Shown piece by piece: positions 44,395-53,948 of a stretch of DNA of 64,000 bases (position 1 is the stretch's first letter; every line of letters begins with the position of its first letter). The notes below the pieces were generated by a model. It was not told where the DNA came from, made no database searches, and was given only the letters and a program-made list of their open reading frames with translations. Location of the stretch: positions 1 to 64,000 of the forward strand of contig PGEI01000003.1 of assembly GCA_002894305.1 (NCBI GenBank), written 5' to 3'. A program made the translations under genes and the position numbers. This DNA comes from Comamonadaceae bacterium CD01. Lineage in GTDB: Bacteria; Pseudomonadota; Gammaproteobacteria; Burkholderiales; Burkholderiaceae_C.

Positions 44395-45324
44395 ATGACC
44401 TCCAGCCCCACTCCCCCTTCCCGCATCACCATCGCCACCCGCGAGAGCCAGCTGGCCCTGTGGCAGGCCGAGCACGTGCAGTCACTGTTGATCGCGCGCG
44501 GCCACCAGGCCGGCATTCTGGGCATGACCACGCGCGGCGACCAGATCCTGGACCGCACGCTGTCCAAGGTGGGCGGCAAGGGCCTGTTCGTCAAAGAGCT
44601 GGAGGTGGCGTTGCAAGAGGGCAACGCCGACATTGCGGTGCACTCGCTCAAGGACGTGCCCATGGAGCTGCCCGCCGGCTTTGCGCTGGCCTGCGTGATG
44701 CTGCGCGAAGACCCGCGCGACGCTTTCGTCTCGCCGCACTACGCGCGCCTGCAGGATTTGCCGCAGGGCGCGGTGGTCGGCACCTCCAGCCTGCGCCGCC
44801 AGGTGCTGCTGCAGGCGCTGCGCCCCGACCTGAAGATAGAGCCGCTGCGCGGCAATGTACAGACGCGCCTGCGCAAGCTCGACGAGGGCCAGTACGCGGC
44901 CATCGTTCTGGCGGCCGCGGGCTTGAAGCGCCTGGGCCTGCACGAGCGCATCCGCAGCGTGTTCGAGCCCACCGAGATGCTGCCCGCCGCCGGCCAGGGC
45001 GCGTTGGGCATAGAGATTCGCGCCGACCGCCAGGATCTGATCGACACGCTGGCACCGCTGGCCGACGAGCGCACCTGGCTCACTGTGACCGCCGAGCGCG
45101 CGGTCAGCCGCGCCATGGGCGGCAGCTGCTCCATGCCGCTGGCCGCGCACGGCCAATGGCAGGACGACACGCTGGCGCTGCACGCCGCCTGGGGCGACCT
45201 GGAAGGCGGCCAGCCGCTGGTGCGCGCCCAGGGCCAGGCGCCGGTTGCCACGCTGGCGCAGGCCGACGCGCTGGGGCTTGAAGTGGCCGCGCGCCTGCAG
45301 GCGGGCGGCGCGCGCAAGGCATGA
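44395..45324 (+). CDS. hemC: Porphobilinogen deaminase (hydroxymethylbilane synthase)
   Basis: A 309-residue enzyme joining four porphobilinogen units. The dipyrromethane cofactor is anchored at C245 in [12 protein letters not shown]; substrate contacts are [37 protein letters not shown] and TSSLRRQ. It is the first gene of a four-gene haem operon; its stop overlaps hemD by four bases. Confidence 0.95.
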
Positions 45325-46130
45325 GCCCGGTCGTCGTCACCCGGCCCGCGCGCGACGCCGCGCAATGGGTGGGCGACCTGCAGGCGCTGGGCATAGACGC
45401 GCTGGCGCTGCCGCTGATCGACATCCACGCGGTCAGCACCGCGCCGCTGCAGCAGGCGCTGGTGCAGGCCCGGTTGCACGCACAGGCCGGCCGCTACCAG
45501 GCCATCATGGTCGTCAGCGGCAACGCGGCGACGCATTTCTTCACGCCCGCACTCGTGGCGGCGCTGGCCGCACAGCCCGGGGGCGGCACCCGCATCTGGG
45601 CGCCCGGCCCCGGAACGGCCGGCCAGCTGCAGGCGCTGGGCCTGCCGCCCGGCTGCATCGACAGCCCCGCCGCCGACGCACGGCAGTTCGACTCCGAATC
45701 CCTGTGGCAGTCCGTCGGCCCGCGAGTGGGCACGGGCACGCGCGTGCTCGTCGTGCGCGGCACCAGCACCCCGGCGCTCGAAGGCGGCAACGGCCGTGAC
45801 TGGCTGGCCGCTCGCATTGCCGCGGCTGGCGGCCAGGCCGACTTCGTCGCCGCCTACGAGCGCGCCGCCCCCGCCTGGAGCAGCGCCGACCTGCAGCAGC
45901 TGCGTGCGCTGCTTGCCAGCGACCCGCTGTGGCTGCTGAGCAGCTCCGAGGCGCTGAGCCACCTGGTCGCCGCGCTGCCCAGGCACGACTGGAGCGCCTG
46001 CCGCGCGCTGGCCACCCACCCGCGCATTGCGCAAAGCGCCACCGGCCACGGTTTTGGCCGGGTGCTGCAATGCCGTCCCACCCTGGCCGACGTGGCCGCA
46101 TCGATAAAATCCGAGCATGAGCGCCGATAA
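45321..46130 (+). CDS. hemD: Uroporphyrinogen-III synthase
   Basis: A 269-residue enzyme closing and inverting ring D of the tetrapyrrole. HemD is poorly conserved, but [20 protein letters not shown] at the start, [11 protein letters not shown], and SSSEALSHL near the end fit the family. It sits between hemC (ATGA overlap) and hemX (14-base overlap), which makes the assignment firm. Confidence 0.9.
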
Positions 46131-47214
46131 CCCCCTGCCCTCCCCGCCGCCACCGGCGCCCTCCTCCACGCATGGTGGTGGCGGCTCCGCGCTGGCGATG
46201 GCCATCATTTCCCTGCTGGCCGTGGGCGCGCTGGCGCTGTCGGCACTGCTGTGGCAGCGCCTGGCATCCATCCAGGAGCAGCTGGCGCGCCAGAGCGCCG
46301 AGACCGGCGCCCAGGCCATCGAGGCGCGTACCGTCGCGCGCGAGGCGCAGGATCTGGCGCGCGACAGCTCCGCCAAGCTCACCGTGCTGGAGACGCGCGT
46401 GGGCGAGGTGGCGCTGCAGCGCAGCCAGCTCGAAGAGCTGATGCAAAGCCTGTCTCGCTCGCGCGACGAGAACCTGGTCGTCGACATCGAGGCCGGCATT
46501 CGCCTGGCGCAGCAGCAGGCGCAGCTGACCGGCAGCCTGCAGCCGCTGCTGGCCGCTCTGCACAGCGCCAGCCAGCGCATCGAACGCGCGTCGCAGCCGC
46601 GGCTGACGCCGGTGCTGCGCGCCATGGCCCAGGACACCGAGCGCCTGGAGCGCGCCAACGTCACCGACACCGCCGGGCTGCTCGGCCGCCTGGACGACCT
46701 GGTGCGCCAGGTGGGCGATCTGCCCCTGCGCAATGCCGCAACCACGGCCCAGGCACTGCACGGCCCGGCGGCGCGGCCGGGCGGCGAGGCTGCCGATGAG
46801 GCGCCCGCGCAGGACAAGCCCGCCGACGCTGCCGCCACGCCGCCGTGGCAGGCCTGGCTGCAGCGCGCCTGGACCGGCGTGCGCGACGAAGCGCTGACGC
46901 TGGTGCGCATTCAGCGCATCGAGCACCCCGACGCGGTGCTGCTGGCGCCCGAGCAGGCCTTCTTCCTGCGCGAAAACCTGAAGATGCAGCTGCTCAACGC
47001 CCGCCTGAGCCTGCTGGGCCGGCGCACCGGCGCGGCGCGCGCCGACCTGGCCTACGCCTACAGCGTCATGGTCAAGTACTTCGACCCCACGTCGCGGCGT
47101 ACCCAGAACGCGCTGCAGGCGCTACAGCAGCTGCAAGAGCACATGACCGCGTCCGACACGCCCACGCTGGACGACACCTTTGCCGCGCTGGCCACGGCCG
47201 CCGCCGGCCGCTGA
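46117..47214 (+). CDS. hemX: HemX family membrane protein
   Basis: A 365-residue protein with one N-terminal membrane helix (~residues 25-48), preceded by a Pro-rich cytoplasmic segment and followed by a coiled coil (~50-115). The rest is the periplasmic HemX domain (YAYSVMVKYFDPTSRRTQNAL near the end). It is often annotated as uroporphyrin-III C-methyltransferase, but it has no methyltransferase motifs and probably serves haem synthesis or trafficking in a way not yet clear. Confidence 0.85.
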   Translation: MSADNPLPSPPPPAPSSTHGGGGSALAMAIISLLAVGALALSALLWQRLASIQEQLARQSAETGAQAIEARTVAREAQDLARDSSAKLTVLETRVGEVALQRSQLEELMQSLSRSRDENLVVDIEAGIRLAQQQAQLTGSLQPLLAALHSASQRIERASQPRLTPVLRAMAQDTERLERANVTDTAGLLGRLDDLVRQVGDLPLRNAATTAQALHGPAARPGGEAADEAPAQDKPADAAATPPWQAWLQRAWTGVRDEALTLVRIQRIEHPDAVLLAPEQAFFLRENLKMQLLNARLSLLGRRTGAARADLAYAYSVMVKYFDPTSRRTQNALQALQQLQEHMTASDTPTLDDTFAALATAAAGR

Positions 47215-47260
47215 CCCCCCCGCTCTCCCGCCACCTCTTTCACGGACAGGACACACCCCC

Positions 47261-48541
47261 ATGCGCGCAGCTCTCTGGTTTCTGGCCCTGTTTGGCGCCG
47301 CCGTCGCGGTGGCGCTGTTTGCCGGCAACAACCAGGCTGTGGTCACCGTGTTCTGGCCGCCCTGGCGCATCGACCTGGCGCTCAACCTGGTGCTGATCGC
47401 GCTGCTGGTGGGCTTCATCGTCGTGCATTCGGCTCTGCGCGGCATGGCGGTGCTGCGCGCGCTGCCCCAGCAGACCCGGCGCTGGCGCGTGATGCAGCGC
47501 GAGCGCACCATGCACGGCGCGCTGCTGGGCGCCTACTCCTACATGCTGTCCGGGCGCTACCTGCGCGCGCGCAAGGACGCGCTCACTGCCATAGGCCAAT
47601 CACAGGCGCTGGAGCAGCTGCGCGAGAGCGACCCGCACACGCGCCAGATGCGCGCGCTGGCGCACCTGATCGCGGCCGAGTCGTCGCACGCGCTGCAAGA
47701 CCGCGAAACCCGCCAGACGCACCTGGAGCAGGCGCAGCAGACGATTGCCGAGCACACCAGCGACAGCGAGCGCGAATTTGGCGAAGGCCTGCAGCTGCGC
47801 GCCGCGCGCTGGGCGCTGGACGACCGGGACGCCGAGTCCGCGCTGGAGCAGCTGGCCAGCCTGCCCGCCGGCACGGCCCGGCGCACGCTGGCGCTGCGCA
47901 CCCGCCTGAAGGCCGCGCGCCACACCCAGCAGACCGACCTGGCGCTGGAGACCGCACGGCTGCTGGCCAAGCATGGCGCCTTTGCCCCGTCCGTGGCCGA
48001 CACGCTGACGCGCTCGCTGCTGCTTGAACAAATCCGCGGCACACGCGACACGCACCAGCTCCTGCGCATCTGGCAGCAGCTGGACGCCGCCGAGCGCAGC
48101 CACCCCGACATCGCCACGCGCGCGGCGCAGCAGCTCTCGCGCCTGGGCGGCGAGCCGGCGCAGGTGCGCCAGTGGCTCACCCCCGTCTGGCAGGCGCTCA
48201 GCGGCCAGGGCGAGCCGGACTTCAACGACGCGCAATGGCTGCGTCTGGTGCGCACGCTGGAGCGCAACATGCAGGATCTGGAGGACGACTGGCTCGCCCG
48301 CATCGAGTCGGCGCAGCGCGCCCGCCCGCGCGAACCCCACCTGCAATACCTGGCCGCGGCAGCCTGCATGCACCGCCAGCTGTGGGGCAAGGCCCAGCAG
48401 GGCTTTGCCCGCGCGGTGCAACAGCTGCGCGACGAGCGCCTGCGCGCCAGCGCCTGGCGCCATCTGGCCGAGCTGGCCGAGCAGCGCGGCGACGGCGACG
48501 AGGCGGTGCACGCCTGGAAGCAGGCGGCACTGCTGCGCTGA
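47261..48541 (+). CDS. hemY: HemY-family TPR membrane protein
   Basis: A 426-residue protein with two N-terminal membrane helices (ALWFLALFGAAVAVALFAG and the one near residues 40-62) and a long tetratricopeptide-like helical domain. This is the proteobacterial HemY of hemCDXY operons, which helps coordinate late haem synthesis. It is not the Bacillus HemY protoporphyrinogen oxidase. ATG 47261 is the family start, 46 bases after hemX. Confidence 0.9.
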   Translation: MRAALWFLALFGAAVAVALFAGNNQAVVTVFWPPWRIDLALNLVLIALLVGFIVVHSALRGMAVLRALPQQTRRWRVMQRERTMHGALLGAYSYMLSGRYLRARKDALTAIGQSQALEQLRESDPHTRQMRALAHLIAAESSHALQDRETRQTHLEQAQQTIAEHTSDSEREFGEGLQLRAARWALDDRDAESALEQLASLPAGTARRTLALRTRLKAARHTQQTDLALETARLLAKHGAFAPSVADTLTRSLLLEQIRGTRDTHQLLRIWQQLDAAERSHPDIATRAAQQLSRLGGEPAQVRQWLTPVWQALSGQGEPDFNDAQWLRLVRTLERNMQDLEDDWLARIESAQRARPREPHLQYLAAAACMHRQLWGKAQQGFARAVQQLRDERLRASAWRHLAELAEQRGDGDEAVHAWKQAALLR

Positions 48542-48903: not shown

Positions 48904-50559
48904 ATGGACAGCGCCCTCCTGAGCCTGTTGGCTGCCTTCCTGCTCTCGATCATTGGACTGTTCGTCTTCATATGGTCGTTGCGCAAGGGGCTGCTGGTCG
49001 AAAATCCCAAGGCCGCATCGGCCATCTTCGTCAAGGGAGAGATCGGTCATATCGACGATCCCGCACTGGGCACCCAGCAGCAGGAGCGCTTCCAGCACGC
49101 GGCGGCCGAGCCGGGCGACGAGCGACACGTCCCGGACGCCCAGGAGCTGCAGGACCGCCTGGCCGCCGACCGCTCCAGCGCGTTTCCGGTGTTCATGTTC
49201 ATCGCGTTCGCCTGCATGTGGCTGCTGTTCGGCGGCATCGCCGGACTGACGGCATCGCTCAAGCTGCACCTGCCCGACTGGCTGGTCAGCGAAGCCTGGA
49301 TGACCTTTGGCCGCATGCGCACCATGCACCTGACGGCCGTGCTCTACGGCTGGATCACCAACGCCGAGCTGGGCATCATCATCTGGCTGATGCCGCGCCT
49401 GCTGCGCACGCCTCTGTTCGGCTCGATGTGGATCATGATGGGCGGCGCGCTGGTCAACGTGGCCATTGCCGCGGGCGTGGGCGCGATTGGCGCGGGCTGG
49501 ACCGACGGCCTGGAGTACCTGGAAATGCCCTGGCAGATCGGTATCTTCTTTGCCGCCGGCATGGTCTGCATCATCGGCCCGGTGCTGTACACGCTGGTCA
49601 ACCGCAAGGTCGAGTCGCTGTACGTGACCACCTGGTACCACACGGCCGCGCTGCTGTGGATCACCTCGCTGTTCATCGTCGGCAAGATTCCCGGCGTGCA
49701 ATTCGGCGTGCAACAGGCCGCGATGAACTGGTGGTATGGCCACAACGTACTCGGCCTGTGGTTCACGCCCGTGGCCGTCGGCGCCATCTACTACTTCCTG
49801 CCCAAGATCATTGCGCGGCCGATTCGCTCGTACAACCTGTCCATCCTGGGCTTCTGGACGCTGGCCTTCTTCTACGCCCAGGTCGGTGGCCACCACCTGG
49901 TGGGCGGCCCGGTGCCGGGCTGGCTGATCACGCTGTCCATCGTGCAGAGCATGATGATGATCATTCCGGTCCTGGCCTTCGCGATCAACATGGCGCTGAC
50001 GATGAAGGGGCGCATGCACCTGTCACGCTACTCGCCGGTGCTGCGCTTCATGATGTTCGGCGGCTTCATGTACATGATGTCGTCGCTGCAGGGCTCGTTC
50101 GAGGCGCTGCGCTCGGTGCAGCAGGTGGCGCACTTCACGCACTACACCGTGGCCCACGCCCACCTGGGCGCCTATGGATTCGTCACCATGGTGCTGTTCG
50201 GCGCCATCTACTTCATCATGCCGCGCATCGTGCACTGGGAATGGCCGTACCCGCGCCTGATCTCGCTGCACTTCTGGCTGGCCGCCATCGGCATCCTGAT
50301 CTACTTCATCTTCCTGTCCTACGGCGGCTGGCTGCAGGGCCTGGCCATGCTCGATCCGGCGCGTCCGTTCATCGACTCCGTCCTGGTCACCATGCCCTAT
50401 CTCAAGTGGCGCAGCCTGGGCGGTGCCCTGATGGTGGCCAGCCACATCGTCTTCGTCTACCACTTCCTGGTCATGGCGCTGCGCTTTGGCCCGGATCGCA
50501 CGGGCGCAGCCCTGTTCTCGAGCCAACCCAAGGCCATGGAGATCGTTCATGGAAAATGA
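48904..50559 (+). CDS. ccoN: cbb3-type (C-family) oxidase subunit I with CcoS-like N-terminal segment
   Basis: A 551-residue membrane protein. Residues 1-~35 form a helix ending FIWSLRKGLL, like CcoS; ~35-90 is a soluble linker; from ~97 a 12-helix haem-copper oxidase core. Ligands: H142 (low-spin haem, TMHLTAVLYGW); Y278-H280 in WWYGHN (cross-linked Tyr and CuB histidine); H330-H331 (GGHHLV, CuB); H418 and H420 (AHAHLGAYG, haems). The helix-VII tyrosine supports oxygen reduction rather than NO reduction. Subunit I of canonical cbb3 is ~475 residues, so the N-terminal extension is unusual. First of five overlapping or adjacent genes. Confidence 0.88.
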   Translation: MDSALLSLLAAFLLSIIGLFVFIWSLRKGLLVENPKAASAIFVKGEIGHIDDPALGTQQQERFQHAAAEPGDERHVPDAQELQDRLAADRSSAFPVFMFIAFACMWLLFGGIAGLTASLKLHLPDWLVSEAWMTFGRMRTMHLTAVLYGWITNAELGIIIWLMPRLLRTPLFGSMWIMMGGALVNVAIAAGVGAIGAGWTDGLEYLEMPWQIGIFFAAGMVCIIGPVLYTLVNRKVESLYVTTWYHTAALLWITSLFIVGKIPGVQFGVQQAAMNWWYGHNVLGLWFTPVAVGAIYYFLPKIIARPIRSYNLSILGFWTLAFFYAQVGGHHLVGGPVPGWLITLSIVQSMMMIIPVLAFAINMALTMKGRMHLSRYSPVLRFMMFGGFMYMMSSLQGSFEALRSVQQVAHFTHYTVAHAHLGAYGFVTMVLFGAIYFIMPRIVHWEWPYPRLISLHFWLAAIGILIYFIFLSYGGWLQGLAMLDPARPFIDSVLVTMPYLKWRSLGGALMVASHIVFVYHFLVMALRFGPDRTGAALFSSQPKAMEIVHGK

Positions 50560-51199
50560 AGTCAAACTGACCGCAGGCGCGATGGCCACTTTTGCCATCG
50601 CGGTCTCCGCCCTGGTCATCCTGCCCTACATCCAGGTGCACGACGTCAAGCCGACCGAGGGCGTCAAGCCCTATACCAGCGCCGAGCTGCGCGGACGCGC
50701 CAGCTACATCGCCAACGGCTGCATGTACTGCCACAGCCAGCAGCCGCGCTCGGAGAGCTTTGCGCCTGCCGACTCCCAGCGCGGCTGGGGCCGTGCCTCG
50801 GTGCCGGGCGACTACGTGTACGACAGGCCCCACCTGCTGGGCAGCATGCGCACCGGGCCTGACCTGCTGAACATCGGCGTGCGCCAGCCCAGCAAGGACT
50901 GGCAACTGGGCCACCTGTACCAGCCGCGCGCCTATGTGCAAGAGTCCATCATGCCGTCCTACCCCTATCTGTTCGACATCAAGGACAAGGCCGAGCAGGA
51001 TGAGGAAGTCGTCAACCTGCCGCCGGGCGTGGCGCCTGCGGGCAAGGTCGTCGTGCCCAAGCCTGAGACACTGGATCTGGTGAAGTACCTGCAGGCGCTC
51101 AAACGCAATTACCCGGTGCTGCCCCCGCAGCCACGCGAGGCCGAAGGTGCCAAGAGCTCCGCGGCGCCTGCGGGCGACACGGCTGCGCCTGCAGTCTGA
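50549..51199 (+). CDS. ccoO: CcoO-like monohaem cytochrome c subunit
   Basis: A 216-residue membrane-anchored cytochrome c. One helix (~10-28) precedes VKPYTSAELRGRASYIANG and the haem site C58-M-Y-C61-H62; SQQPRSES and VYDRPHLLGSMRTGPDLL are the CcoO hallmarks. It is about 216 residues against ~200-220 for CcoO. The C-terminal tail is Ala/Pro-rich. It starts inside the last 11 bases of subunit I. It carries electrons to the oxidase. Confidence 0.88.
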   Translation: MENEVKLTAGAMATFAIAVSALVILPYIQVHDVKPTEGVKPYTSAELRGRASYIANGCMYCHSQQPRSESFAPADSQRGWGRASVPGDYVYDRPHLLGSMRTGPDLLNIGVRQPSKDWQLGHLYQPRAYVQESIMPSYPYLFDIKDKAEQDEEVVNLPPGVAPAGKVVVPKPETLDLVKYLQALKRNYPVLPPQPREAEGAKSSAAPAGDTAAPAV

Positions 51200-51212
51200 A
51201 AGGAGGGTCACG

Positions 51213-51809
51213 ATGAGCCAACAACCAGATATCGACGCACAAAAACGCGAAAACGAAGACCCCGAAGAGGCCATCCGCCCGATGCCGATCAGCGCCTTGC
51301 TGATCGCGCTGGTGATGGTGGTCTGGGCCGTGGTCTACATCATCCGCTCCGAACCGCTGGGCCTGTCGCAGTATGGCGACCAGCGCACGCTGGCCGAGCT
51401 CTCGGGGCCGGCCGCACCTGCTGCCGGCGCCGCCGTCGACGGCAAGGCCATTTTTGCCGCGCAGTGCGCCGCCTGCCACCAGGCCAACGGCGCCGGCCTG
51501 CCGGGCGTGTTCCCGCCGCTGGACGGCTCCGAATGGGTGCACGGCGAGCCCCGCGTGCTGGCCAACATCCTGCTGCACGGCATCACCGGCGAGATCACAG
51601 TCAAGGGCAACAAGTACCAGGGCGCCATGCCCAGCTTTGCCCAGCTGTCGGACGCCGAGCTGGCGGGCGTGGCCACCTACATCCGCACCAGCTGGTCCAA
51701 CAAGAACGACCCGCTGGACGCCGACCTGTTTGCCGAGGAGCGCAAGGCCGGAGCCGACCGCACGACACCCTTCGAGGGTGAAGACGCGCTCAAGGCCTTG
51801 CTGAAGTAA
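51213..51809 (+). CDS. CcoP-like monohaem cytochrome c
   Basis: A 198-residue protein with one N-terminal helix (~26-44) and a single cytochrome c domain: haem site C85-A-A-C88-H89, methionine ligand in GAMPSFAQLSD. Canonical CcoP carries two haems c and is ~300 residues, so this is a half-size version. ATG 51213 is preceded by a strong aaaggagg ribosome site. It is the likely electron entry point from soluble cytochrome c or the bc1 complex. Confidence 0.85.
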   Translation: MSQQPDIDAQKRENEDPEEAIRPMPISALLIALVMVVWAVVYIIRSEPLGLSQYGDQRTLAELSGPAAPAAGAAVDGKAIFAAQCAACHQANGAGLPGVFPPLDGSEWVHGEPRVLANILLHGITGEITVKGNKYQGAMPSFAQLSDAELAGVATYIRTSWSNKNDPLDADLFAEERKAGADRTTPFEGEDALKALLK

Positions 51810-51811
51810 GC

Positions 51812-52471
51812 ATGCTGCGCACCGCCCTGGCCTGCCTGCTCACCCTGCTGGCCGGCTGGGCGGCGGCCTCCTGGCTGACCTACGACTTTCAGGCCTGGAC
51901 CGACGAGGATGCACGCCGCCTGGAGGTGGCGTTGCGCCCGGTGCCCGCTCCGTCCGTGGCCGTCGACGGCGCGGACGTACCCGCAACCACCCTGCCCGCA
52001 CTGTTGGCCGGTGGCAGCGGCACGGACGGACACGCGGGCGTGACGATCGCCGACTTCTTCTACACCCGCTGCCAGACCGTCTGCCTGTCGCTGGGCAGCA
52101 GCTTCCAGCAGCTGCAGCAGGCACTGCAGCAAGAACCCAACCCTGGCGTGCGCCTGCTGTCGATCAGCTTTGACGGCGCCCACGACGCACCGCAAGTGCT
52201 TGCCCCCTATGCTGACAAGCTGCAGGCCGACCCGCGGCTATGGCGTTTCGCACGCGTGCCCGACCCGGCGCAGCAACAGGCATTGCTGGCACGCCTGGGA
52301 GTGGTGGTCATTCCCAACGACTTTGGCGACTACGAGCACAACGCCGCACTGCTGGTCTTTGACGGCCAGGGCCGCATGGTGCGCGTCTTCGATCTGGCCG
52401 AGCAGCAGCTGGCGCTGAACTACGCCCGCCACCTGGCACGCCAGCAGCACGCCGGCGCACCGCAATCATGA
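51812..52471 (+). CDS. SCO1/SenC/PrrC-family copper chaperone
   Basis: A 219-residue thioredoxin-fold protein anchored by an N-terminal helix (LACLLTLLAGWAAASWL). The copper ligands are C87-x3-C91 in TRCQTVCLSLG and H176 in GDYEHNAALL, all three SCO residues present. SCO proteins load copper into or keep thiols reduced in oxidase subunits. It starts two bases after the CcoP-like gene. The C-terminal half is divergent from typical SCO. Confidence 0.86.
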   Translation: MLRTALACLLTLLAGWAAASWLTYDFQAWTDEDARRLEVALRPVPAPSVAVDGADVPATTLPALLAGGSGTDGHAGVTIADFFYTRCQTVCLSLGSSFQQLQQALQQEPNPGVRLLSISFDGAHDAPQVLAPYADKLQADPRLWRFARVPDPAQQQALLARLGVVVIPNDFGDYEHNAALLVFDGQGRMVRVFDLAEQQLALNYARHLARQQHAGAPQS

Positions 52472-53100
52472 TGCGGCCACCATGGCCGCAAGCGGCCCGC
52501 CTGACCGCCTGGCTGACGCCACGGCGTCAGGCGCTTGCCGGCCTGTGCCTCGCCGTGGTGCTGCTATGGCCTGCCGCCCGTCACGCACTGGAAGCGAGCA
52601 TGTGGCGCCACATGGTGCTGCAGTTTCCCCTGCTGATGGCCAGCGGCGCGCTGCTGGCCGTCGCCCTGCCCGAGCGGCTGCGTCGCTGGGTGATGAGCTG
52701 CAACACCCACGGCATTGCCGGCCTGGTCTGGATCAGCGCGGCGCTGGCCGTGCTGATGATCCCCCGCGTGCTCGACCTGGCCCTGTACCGCAGCGACATC
52801 GAAGTGGCCAAGTGCGCCGCGCTGCTGCTGGCCGGCGTCGCCCTGCGCCTGTCCTGGCGCCCCGCCGGACTGATCATCCAGGGCTTTTTTCTGGGCAACC
52901 TCCTGATGATGATGGTCGTCGTCGGCCAGCTCTACATCGACTCGCCCCTGCGCCTGTGCAACGCCTACCTGCTCGACGACCAGCAGCGGCTGGGCCAGTG
53001 GCTGATCTCGTTGGCCGCTTTTGTGGGCCTCACTTGGCTGGCAAACGCCACCTGGCGGCTGATCCAACGTGACGAAGCACGGCTGGCGCAGCAGTCCTGA
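52468..53100 (+). CDS. CtaG-like membrane protein (probable oxidase assembly)
   Basis: A 210-residue membrane protein with about five helices. Residues near MWRHMVLQFPLLMASGALL and the late LLDDQQRLGQWLISLAAF recall caa3-type CtaG proteins (HM..H..L..M and the DQQLGG-like segment), which help insert copper into haem-copper oxidases. The match is by pattern only. ATG overlaps the SCO stop by four bases, so it is the last gene of the oxidase operon and most likely an assembly factor. Confidence 0.6.
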   Translation: MMRPPWPQAARLTAWLTPRRQALAGLCLAVVLLWPAARHALEASMWRHMVLQFPLLMASGALLAVALPERLRRWVMSCNTHGIAGLVWISAALAVLMIPRVLDLALYRSDIEVAKCAALLLAGVALRLSWRPAGLIIQGFFLGNLLMMMVVVGQLYIDSPLRLCNAYLLDDQQRLGQWLISLAAFVGLTWLANATWRLIQRDEARLAQQS

Positions 53101-53150: not shown

Positions 53151-53948
53151 CTACGCGCCCAAGGATAGGTTGAAAAAATCCGCCATGGCCATTAATTGAC
53201 CATCCAGCATGTGCTGCCCCGCATGGGCCTGGGCGCCGCATGCGCACGCGGCGGCCAGCAGCGCGGTGTCGCGCATCACGGCCTCGCACACCAGCATGCC
53301 CGGCCGCAGTGTCTCGAGCGGCAGCGGCGCGGGATCATCGTCGTGCAGCCCGAGGGCCGTTGCGTTGATGACCACGTCAAAGCCCCTCGCATCGGCCGCC
53401 CCGCCGCGCATGGCGACGCCCGGCAGCGCCGGGGCGATGCGCGCCAGCGCCTCCTCGGCCCGCGCCATGGAGCGGTTGTAGAGCACCAGCTCGGCCGGGC
53501 GCTCGCGCCCCACGGCGTAGGCGATGGCCTTGCCCGCCCCGCCCGCGCCCAGCAGCAGCACGCGCTTGCCGGCCAGGCCGTGGCCCTGCTGCCTCAGGCC
53601 CGCGACGAAGCCGTCACCATCGAGGTTGCCGCCCAGCCAATGGCCGCGCGCGCCATCCCAGCGCAACACGTTGGCGGCGCCGACCAGGCGTGCCGCCGGG
53701 GTCAGCTCGCCGCAATGCGCGACCACCGCCTCCTTGTGCGGGATGGTGACCACCAGCCCGGCCAGGTTCTGGCAGCCCGCCAGTCCCGCCAGCAGCGCCG
53801 GCAGCTGCGGCGGCGCCACATGCAGCGGCACGCACACGGCGTTGTGGCCCTGGCGCGCCATGGCCGCGTTGAAGAGCTGCGGCGTGCGCACATGGGCGAT
53901 AGGGTCGGCGACGATGCCGACCACCCGGGTCTTGCCGTCGATCTCCAT
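53151..53948 (-). CDS. Shikimate dehydrogenase-like protein (divergent AroE)
   Basis: A 265-residue AroE-family NAD(P)-dependent dehydrogenase. The nucleotide site is GAGGAGKAIAYAVG, with NRS (YNRSMARAE) after the second strand suggesting NADPH. K72 (TIPHKEA) and D110 (GGNLDGDGF) of the catalytic pair are kept, but the two substrate serines of the AroE motif NPxxHSxSP are changed (DPIAHVRTP: V20, T22), so ordinary shikimate synthesis is doubtful. It is the last gene of the large catabolic operon, which favours a role in oxidising a polyol or hydroxy-acid. Confidence 0.8.
   Translation of the reverse strand: MEIDGKTRVVGIVADPIAHVRTPQLFNAAMARQGHNAVCVPLHVAPPQLPALLAGLAGCQNLAGLVVTIPHKEAVVAHCGELTPAARLVGAANVLRWDGARGHWLGGNLDGDGFVAGLRQQGHGLAGKRVLLLGAGGAGKAIAYAVGRERPAELVLYNRSMARAEEALARIAPALPGVAMRGGAADARGFDVVINATALGLHDDDPAPLPLETLRPGMLVCEAVMRDTALLAAACACGAQAHAGQHMLDGQLMAMADFFNLSLGA

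Follow-up and report, generated by a model that had tools for sequence, protein, structure and literature searches.

A conserved five-gene operon of Comamonadaceae bacterium CD01 predicted to encode a separate C-family haem-copper oxidase type with its own assembly genes

The window analysed here is a stretch of 64,000 nucleotides (nt) from Comamonadaceae bacterium CD01 (contig PGEI01000003.1, positions 1 to 64,000, forward strand), and we describe an operon at positions 48904-53100 that encodes a divergent C-family haem-copper oxidase. The initial annotation had placed a five-gene operon at this site, and all five genes are indeed present on the + strand over that span. Subunit I (551 amino acids (aa); 48904..50559) matches the Pfam family COX1 (PF00115) at 1e-79, and its residues 1-42 (48904..49029) form a fused N-terminal membrane segment that resembles CcoS/FixS, based on a FixS match and on hhalign. 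Subunit II (216 aa from an ATG start; 50549..51199) overlaps subunit I by 11 nt and is of the FixO/CcoO type (PF02433, 9.5e-37), with one haem c motif, C58MYCH. Subunit III (198 aa; 51213..51809; PF00034, Cytochrom_C, 1.3e-14) is a single-haem, c552-like cytochrome with the motif C85AACH and one likely membrane anchor, read from the sequence. It is followed by an SCO/SenC-type copper chaperone (219 aa; 51812..52471; PF02630, SCO1-SenC, 3.4e-8) and by gene 5 (210 aa; 52468..53100), which, based on hhalign and a predicted model, encodes a CtaG-like polytopic membrane protein and probable CuB-site assembly factor. The genes are co-directional and tightly packed, with intact open frames and intergenic gaps of at most 13 nt, and the operon thus has no space for a separate ccoQ or ccoH; the absence of a separate ccoQ had been remarked on initially. 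Among the five operon proteins, no Pfam match to COX2, the CuA subunit, was found.

We conclude from sequence comparison that this is a real, conserved and separate C-family (cbb3-like) oxidase type with its own predicted assembly genes. We consider it separate and independent because subunit I falls under the ccoN cut-off, stands apart in the tree and coexists with a standard locus; on these grounds we agree with the initial annotation, which had proposed a separate oxidase type with its own assembly factors. Subunit I scores 258.8 bits against the ccoN equivalog model (TIGR00780), the cut-off of which is 583.15 bits. When 120 genomes of the phylum were scored with this model, intact standard CcoN proteins reached at least 592 bits (one G244 gene, which is split, scores less) compared to 259 for the window protein, and a second low-scoring population, mostly from families f39 and f59, was found at 226-249 bits. 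The best PDB sequence match of subunit I is CcoN (3mk7_A, 1.7e-56), and its identity to the standard CcoN proteins of the family is 30-36%. A phylogeny of subunit I, one of the checks suggested initially, was built from 31 non-redundant members, 13 other divergent rows and 35 standard CcoN proteins, and places subunit I outside ordinary CcoN: the members fall on one side of a branch with support 87/66 (93/94 with locus L225 added), and the 35 standard CcoN proteins form another group (83/88).

There is also a second non-canonical C-family group (loci L216-L223 and L227-L229), in which subunit I is ∼468 aa long with no N-terminal extension, the FixO protein is ∼314 aa long, and three K-channel-type columns carry H, G and A. 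Some of these loci have a stand-alone CcoS-like gene nearby (two were tested, with FixS matches at 0.003 and 0.035), and some, among the matches listed, have a 170-aa COX1 fragment nearby.

The genome that carries the window encodes six COX1-family proteins. A standard cco set is found on contig C111, with a CcoN scoring 787.2 bits against TIGR00780, a FixO protein (283.7 bits), a 308-aa cytochrome with two CXXCH motifs, a stand-alone FixS, and proteins of 488 and 801 aa that we take to be CcoG and CcoI from their places. The window operon is thus an additional oxidase and not a broken copy of the sole one. The search for a second locus, also proposed at the outset, therefore yielded a standard locus on another contig, and the two-haem CcoP that was found belongs to that locus; with subunit I outside CcoN in the tree, neither of the outcomes that had been named as contrary to a separate type occurred. 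The remaining COX1-family proteins are an aa3-type protein (C170), two proteins on C206 and a 784-aa protein (C33), which, from its size, is presumably a quinol nitric oxide (NO) reductase (qNOR). The cluster on C206 (1-13910, L009) is unusual in its own right: it combines a COX2-like protein and an SCO protein with the two COX1-family proteins (566 and 479 aa) and with two cytochrome b fusions, one to ferredoxin/FlpD domains and the other to a Fer2/FAD/NAD reductase.

The operon is widely conserved. Subunit I has matches of at least 55% identity in 21 of 150 genomes of the family, its own included, and the next matches are at most 36% identical and of the standard CcoN kind. Standard-type CcoN is also found in 20 of these 21 genomes; the exception, G045, is 86% complete. 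In a sample of 398 genomes of the phylum, six (again including its own) match subunit I at E ≤1e-80. A scan of named genomes, from which the best 80 loci were kept (the total is at least 80), yielded loci in Comamonas, Acidovorax, Polaromonas, Ramlibacter, Cupriavidus, Massilia, Duganella, Alcaligenes, Castellaniella, Azoarcus and Methylotenera, among others. Subunit I is present in all 80 of these loci, subunit II in 79, the cytochrome c in 78, and the SCO and CtaG-like genes in 75 each; all five genes are found in 75 loci, and the five incomplete ones (L109, L128, L129, L138 and L173) stop at contig ends. The five-gene order is complete in 20/20 loci of the same family (L053-L072), and a chance arrangement or misassembly is ruled out by the occurrence of the same order across families. 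The locus sets overlap; with five plasmid loci included, 105 loci reduce to 93 distinct ones. The plasmid copies of Azoarcus KH32C and C. metallidurans CH34 have all five genes, and the plasmid versions from Paraburkholderia, Indioceanicola and Paracoccus have a CcoI-similar P-type ATPase downstream. On the Paraburkholderia plasmid pBN2 (L049:8819-12812), the oxidase genes are followed by those for a copper-type P-type ATPase, for a SorA-like sulfite dehydrogenase (560.8 bits; below the cut-off of 600) and for a cytochrome c, which suggests sulfite as an electron source there. No relative of the operon was found on viral contigs.

The catalytic core of subunit I appears to be that of an oxygen reductase. 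We compared residues in the sequence sets used for the tree, with the register taken from the 3mk7 alignment, and found that H142, H280, H330, H331, H418, H420 and Y324 are identical in 31/31 members, 13/13 divergent rows and 35/35 standard CcoN proteins. From published cbb3 work, we take H142 and H420 to be ligands of the low-spin haem b, H418 of haem b3, and H280, H330 and H331 of CuB, with Y324 as the cross-link residue. Similarly, the K-channel-type residues Y296, Y297, S309, Y310, S313 and Y390 are identical in all 31 members and all 35 CcoN proteins; the f39/f59 rows have H, G and A in place of Y310, S313 and Y390. At the position that corresponds to P. stutzeri E323, 28 of the 31 members have Q and the other three (L130, L137 and L146) have E, which is also the residue of 35/35 CcoN proteins. 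The haem-copper NO reductases lack the active-site Tyr at the CcoN position, a loss that is not seen here, since Y324 is present in 31/31 members; the probable qNOR of the same genome carries F there. NO reductases have Glu four residues after H280, where subunit I has Gly. The predicted model of subunit I (predicted local distance difference test score (pLDDT) 77.8; predicted template modelling score (pTM) 0.85) is matched best by CcoN chains in Foldseek (E ∼1e-19), followed by NO reductases (∼1e-10). Because the haem, CuB and cross-link residues and the examined K-channel-type residues are all kept, subunit I most likely reduces O2. The operon thus has the broad features of a C-family oxygen reductase (six His ligands, the Tyr at the CcoN position and a FixO-type monohaem subunit) and lacks those of standard cbb3 (a score above the ccoN cut-off, a two-haem CcoP and adjoining ccoG and ccoI).

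Subunit I differs from CcoN at its N-terminus. The number of residues before the first haem-b His is 117-167 in the 31 members (median 141), whereas the other two groups have medians of 62 and 63; a misread start of subunit I is ruled out, as the extension is found throughout the clade. We examined the N-termini in 25 of 29 rows, having dropped L067 (start called short), L072 (contig end), and L074 and L075 (no extension). The Pfam family FixS (PF03597) was found at E ≤1 in 24 of the 25 N-termini, with a best value of 2e-5, and every other family in at most two. The N-terminus of the window protein itself matches PF03597 at E 0.018 (15.2 bits, under the cut-off of 23.1). When 60 genomes were searched for FixS in six frames, the N-termini of two relatives ranked directly after the real CcoS genes (0.004 and 0.007). 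Alignment by hhalign with a profile of 29 stand-alone CcoS proteins (misplaced row L083 dropped) gave a moderate probability of 66%, at E 5.6e-5 and over 39 of 42 columns, whereas 13 controls (a reversed profile, three other membrane segments and nine stretches of subunit I) gave 0.1-19.9%, the best of them over 16 columns. We regard the N-terminus as probably homologous to CcoS. The initial annotation had stated that ccoGHIS are lacking; there is indeed no separate ccoS, but its counterpart appears to lie within subunit I. For the other genes, no match of at least 60 bits to the CcoG, CcoP or CcoI of the same genome was found in flanks of up to 8 kb per side of the best 80 loci, and no model-based search was made for ccoH or ccoQ. 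In Campylobacter, deletion of ccoS is reported to have abolished cbb3 activity (PMC8267372).

Subunits II and III carry one haem c motif each. Subunit II scores 127 bits against PF02433, above the cut-off of 29.6, and matches 3mk7_B at 6.2e-30. The single haem c of subunit III, C85-C88-H89, is exactly as the initial annotation had it, and one CXXCH motif is found in the third subunit of 27/29 relatives, the exceptions being L052, with three, and the distant L075, with two. The description of this subunit as CcoP-like holds only in part. A match to CcoP is detectable (9.5e-9), but the kinship was overstated: the closest solved relatives of the haem domain are the C-terminal cytochrome domain of copper nitrite reductases (8.8e-28) and Thermus c552 (3.2e-23), and the score against the NCBIfam ccoP model (TIGR00782; 9.2e-13, 48.1 bits) does not reach the cut-off of 179.95. 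In our reading, subunit III is not a shortened CcoP but another cytochrome that has come to occupy its place, and it would be better named a c552-like membrane cytochrome.

The last two genes of the operon have likely roles in copper handling. The SCO protein scores 34.0 bits against PF02630 (cut-off 22.8), and its CxxxC and His residues (C87, C91 and H176) are invariant in 22/22 proteins. Gene 5 alone has no Pfam match; at E ≤1, 20 gene-5 relatives matched DUF1404 in nine cases (best 4.4e-5) and Caa3_CtaG in three (best 0.036). Caa3_CtaG has no match in the same genome at E ≤0.001, and a search of 200 genomes of the phylum gave none for DUF1404 at E ≤1e-4. A profile of gene 5 (36 relatives) aligned by hhalign with CtaG-family proteins of the phylum (from 12 matches, with three partial ones left out and L231 dropped as mis-framed) gave 92.8%, E 4.1e-7, over 188 columns, compared to 0.5% for reversed CtaG and 0.1% for an unrelated membrane profile. 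The earlier CtaG-like label therefore stands, as a distant kinship. The model of gene 5 is helical and of membrane type (pLDDT 95.7); it has no Foldseek match at E ≤0.001 and low-Z helical matches only (best Z 5.2), results that do not bear on whether the fold is novel. The argument, made initially, that SCO factors normally serve aa3/caa3 oxidases is a weak one, as SCO acts for cbb3 as well: in Campylobacter, cbb3 activity fell when an operon encoding SCO and PCuAC was deleted (PMC8267372), and a role of SCO for C oxidases has also been stated (PMC6431628). A second pair of SCO and CtaG-like genes lies ∼3 kb downstream of the operon in one locus (L061:11107-12190).

Upstream of the operon, on the same strand (44395-48541), lie what we take to be hemC- and hemD-type genes and two more open frames, and the next gene downstream (53151-53948) is on the opposite strand. 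The hemC-hemD-type neighbours were found beside the operon by tblastn in only 1 of the best 80 loci (L110), which rules out a conserved link. Elsewhere, msrB and then msrA directly follow the operon of Azoarcus KH32C (L048:10110-11074). The neighbourhood tends to stay fixed in twelve Alcaligenaceae-type loci among L141-L163, with a ∼229-aa protein downstream in 12 loci and upstream genes that are presumably of thyA type. A scan of 103 upstream regions for the FNR motif TTGAY-N4-RTCAA found no perfect site; 48 of the 103 have matches at 8 or 9 of 10 positions, compared to ∼22 expected from mononucleotide shuffles, but 40 of 80 coding-region controls also reach 8 or 9.

In a minority of loci, the operon lies near genes associated with NO. 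Within 6 kb, NnrS-type genes were found in 11 of the 93 distinct loci, Rrf2-type genes in 17 and truncated-haemoglobin-type genes in 14; at least one kind is present in 25 loci and at least two kinds in 11. The assignments follow BLAST clusters, from each of which one or two members were tested; some genes, such as the NnrS of G028, escaped the gene caller, which makes the counts minimum values. The cluster members tested matched NnrS at 3.9e-109, Rrf2 at 8.4e-35 and, for L070, a group III truncated haemoglobin (2ig3) at 1.5e-10; the haemoglobin-type protein of L127 has no Pfam or NCBIfam match at 0.001. The Rrf2 protein tested scores higher with RirA (128.8 bits, cut-off 193) than with NsrR (114.8 bits, cut-off 182), and both cut-offs are missed. 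Between the cytochrome c and SCO genes, there is an Rrf2 gene in L120, L131 and L137 and a haemoglobin-type gene in L062, L067, L070 and L161. Five of the 21 family genomes (G028, G042, G062, G067 and G070) have NnrS no more than 1 kb upstream of subunit I; by our arithmetic, ∼0.02 such adjacencies would be expected from the 35 NnrS copies in ∼89 Mb of those genomes. NnrS is described as a regular member of NO-responsive regulons (PMC1274295). The window operon has none of these NO-type neighbours, and the three NnrS genes of its genome are on other contigs; because of this, the pattern suggests a role under NO as a lead about the oxidase type, and not as a result for the window locus.

With gene content, conservation, residues and kinship established at the level of sequence, we consider it probable that the operon specifies a functional O2 reductase with largely dedicated maturation, that is, a second, independent C-family oxygen reductase that would supply its own maturation. 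In the order of flow that we propose, electrons would enter via the membrane-anchored single-haem c552-like cytochrome and then cross the haem of the FixO-type subunit and the low-spin haem b; O2, the presumed substrate, would be reduced at the haem b3-CuB site with its Tyr324-His280 pair, and protons would be delivered through the K-channel. The CcoS-like helix, SCO and the CtaG-like protein would be dedicated cofactor-insertion parts, with putative functions in copper loading and as a fused CcoS, and the oxidase would therefore need less, or none, of CcoG/H/I/S. Several observations weigh against this. The FixS gathering score is not reached and the hhalign support for CcoS is moderate; the N-terminus of the window protein is among the chance-level matches (E 0.153) in the six-frame FixS search of 60 genomes; and the N-terminal helix is modelled with low confidence (10-residue means of 47-66 across residues 1-50). 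Gene 5 does not reach the PF09678 Caa3_CtaG cut-off, and neither SCO nor CtaG-like genes had a match in the three basal plasmid members (Paraburkholderia, Indioceanicola and Paracoccus), so these two genes are not essential clade-wide. Clade supports are moderate and the tree program warned of long branches, and the deep order of the tree is therefore unsure. The standard maturation genes in the same genome could serve both enzymes.

If they did so, the operon would encode a divergent cbb3 isoenzyme that still relies on the CcoG, CcoI and CcoS of the genome, with SCO, the CtaG-like protein and the extension as minor or other parts. The standard set in this genome, standard-type CcoN in all but one of the operon-bearing family genomes, and the missed FixS and CtaG cut-offs are in line with such an enzyme; but SCO and CtaG-like genes accompany the oxidase in 75/80 loci, with the five misses at contig ends, and the extension is clade-wide, and we think this account rather unlikely. 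That the operon encodes a decayed or non-respiratory haem-copper protein, or chiefly an NO reductase with no O2 activity, fits the low score with the ccoN model, but the ligands, the Tyr and the examined K-channel-type residues are invariant in 31 divergent members and the frames are intact, which makes it very improbable. A further proposal, compatible with a dedicated O2 reductase as its physiological role, is an oxidase for life with NO, either NO-tolerant or also NO-reducing and made under NO control. It draws on the NO-type neighbours in 25/93 loci, the excess of adjacent NnrS genes and the resemblance of the subunit III haem domain to that of copper nitrite reductase. Against it, 68/93 loci and the window lack such neighbours, related loci are not independent, the L127 protein matches no Pfam or NCBIfam family at 0.001 and the Rrf2 protein tested scores higher with RirA than with NsrR, and the catalytic Tyr is kept, with Gly where NO reductases have Glu. 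The literature points both ways, as the cbb3 of P. stutzeri reduces NO to N2O (PMC8780969), but a cbb3 oxidase is cited as strongly NO-inhibited (PMC6472365). We hold this role to be possible but tentative. Slightly more doubtful still is the full combination, a distinct C-family subtype that would have absorbed CcoS, would load copper by CtaG and SCO as A-type oxidases do, would take electrons through a nitrite-reductase/c552-like entry, and would serve NO-tolerant or NO-consuming respiration.

The cbb3 oxidases are high-affinity enzymes of low-oxygen life, and their maturation has been studied via ccoGHIS. If our preferred reading of a dedicated O2 reductase is true, the fused, one-to-one copy of the CcoS-like part, which could be cut off or moved, would make CcoS function testable, and the operon would allow a test of whether the CuB site of a C-family enzyme can receive its copper from a CtaG-type factor; the neighbouring NO-type genes would give one more reason to keep a second C-family oxidase. 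The operon is common to many soil and water bacteria and represents a little-noticed cbb3 relative. Two annotated records label its genes plainly as ‘cbb3-type cytochrome c oxidase subunit I/II’, and the type is therefore easy to overlook. In titles and the beginnings of abstracts, with subscription papers largely outside this coverage, we found no description of the operon, of a CcoS-CcoN fusion or of NnrS beside a cbb3-like oxidase. New here are the CcoS-like N-terminus, the c552/nitrite-reductase-like third subunit and the NO-type neighbours in a minority of loci, the last of which hint at a role under NO.

Compared to the standard cbb3 CcoNOQP oxidases (P. stutzeri 3mk7 and R. capsulatus 6xkw), the window operon shares the fold of subunit I, its haem, CuB, Tyr and examined K-channel-type residues, and the FixO-type subunit II. 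It differs in the CcoS-like N-terminal fusion, the Q/E change at the E323 position and the single-haem c552-like third subunit, and in that SCO and CtaG-like genes adjoin the oxidase genes whereas ccoG, ccoP and ccoI do not. The likeness to CcoS/FixS lies in a lone membrane helix at the N-terminus and a similar short motif after it, and FixS is the best Pfam match of the set of N-termini; the segment is fused to subunit I here, whereas CcoS is a separate protein of ∼50 aa, and the window copy is under the Pfam cut-off. The haem domain of subunit III resembles Thermus c552 and the cytochrome domain of three-domain copper nitrite reductases, but stands here alone behind a membrane anchor in an oxidase operon. 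Finally, gene 5 aligns with Caa3_CtaG over the 188 columns and the SCO protein shares CxxxC and His with the SCO/SenC family; gene 5 is under the Pfam cut-off and resembles DUF1404 in 9/20 members, and, judged by their position, both proteins would serve a C-family rather than an A-family oxidase.

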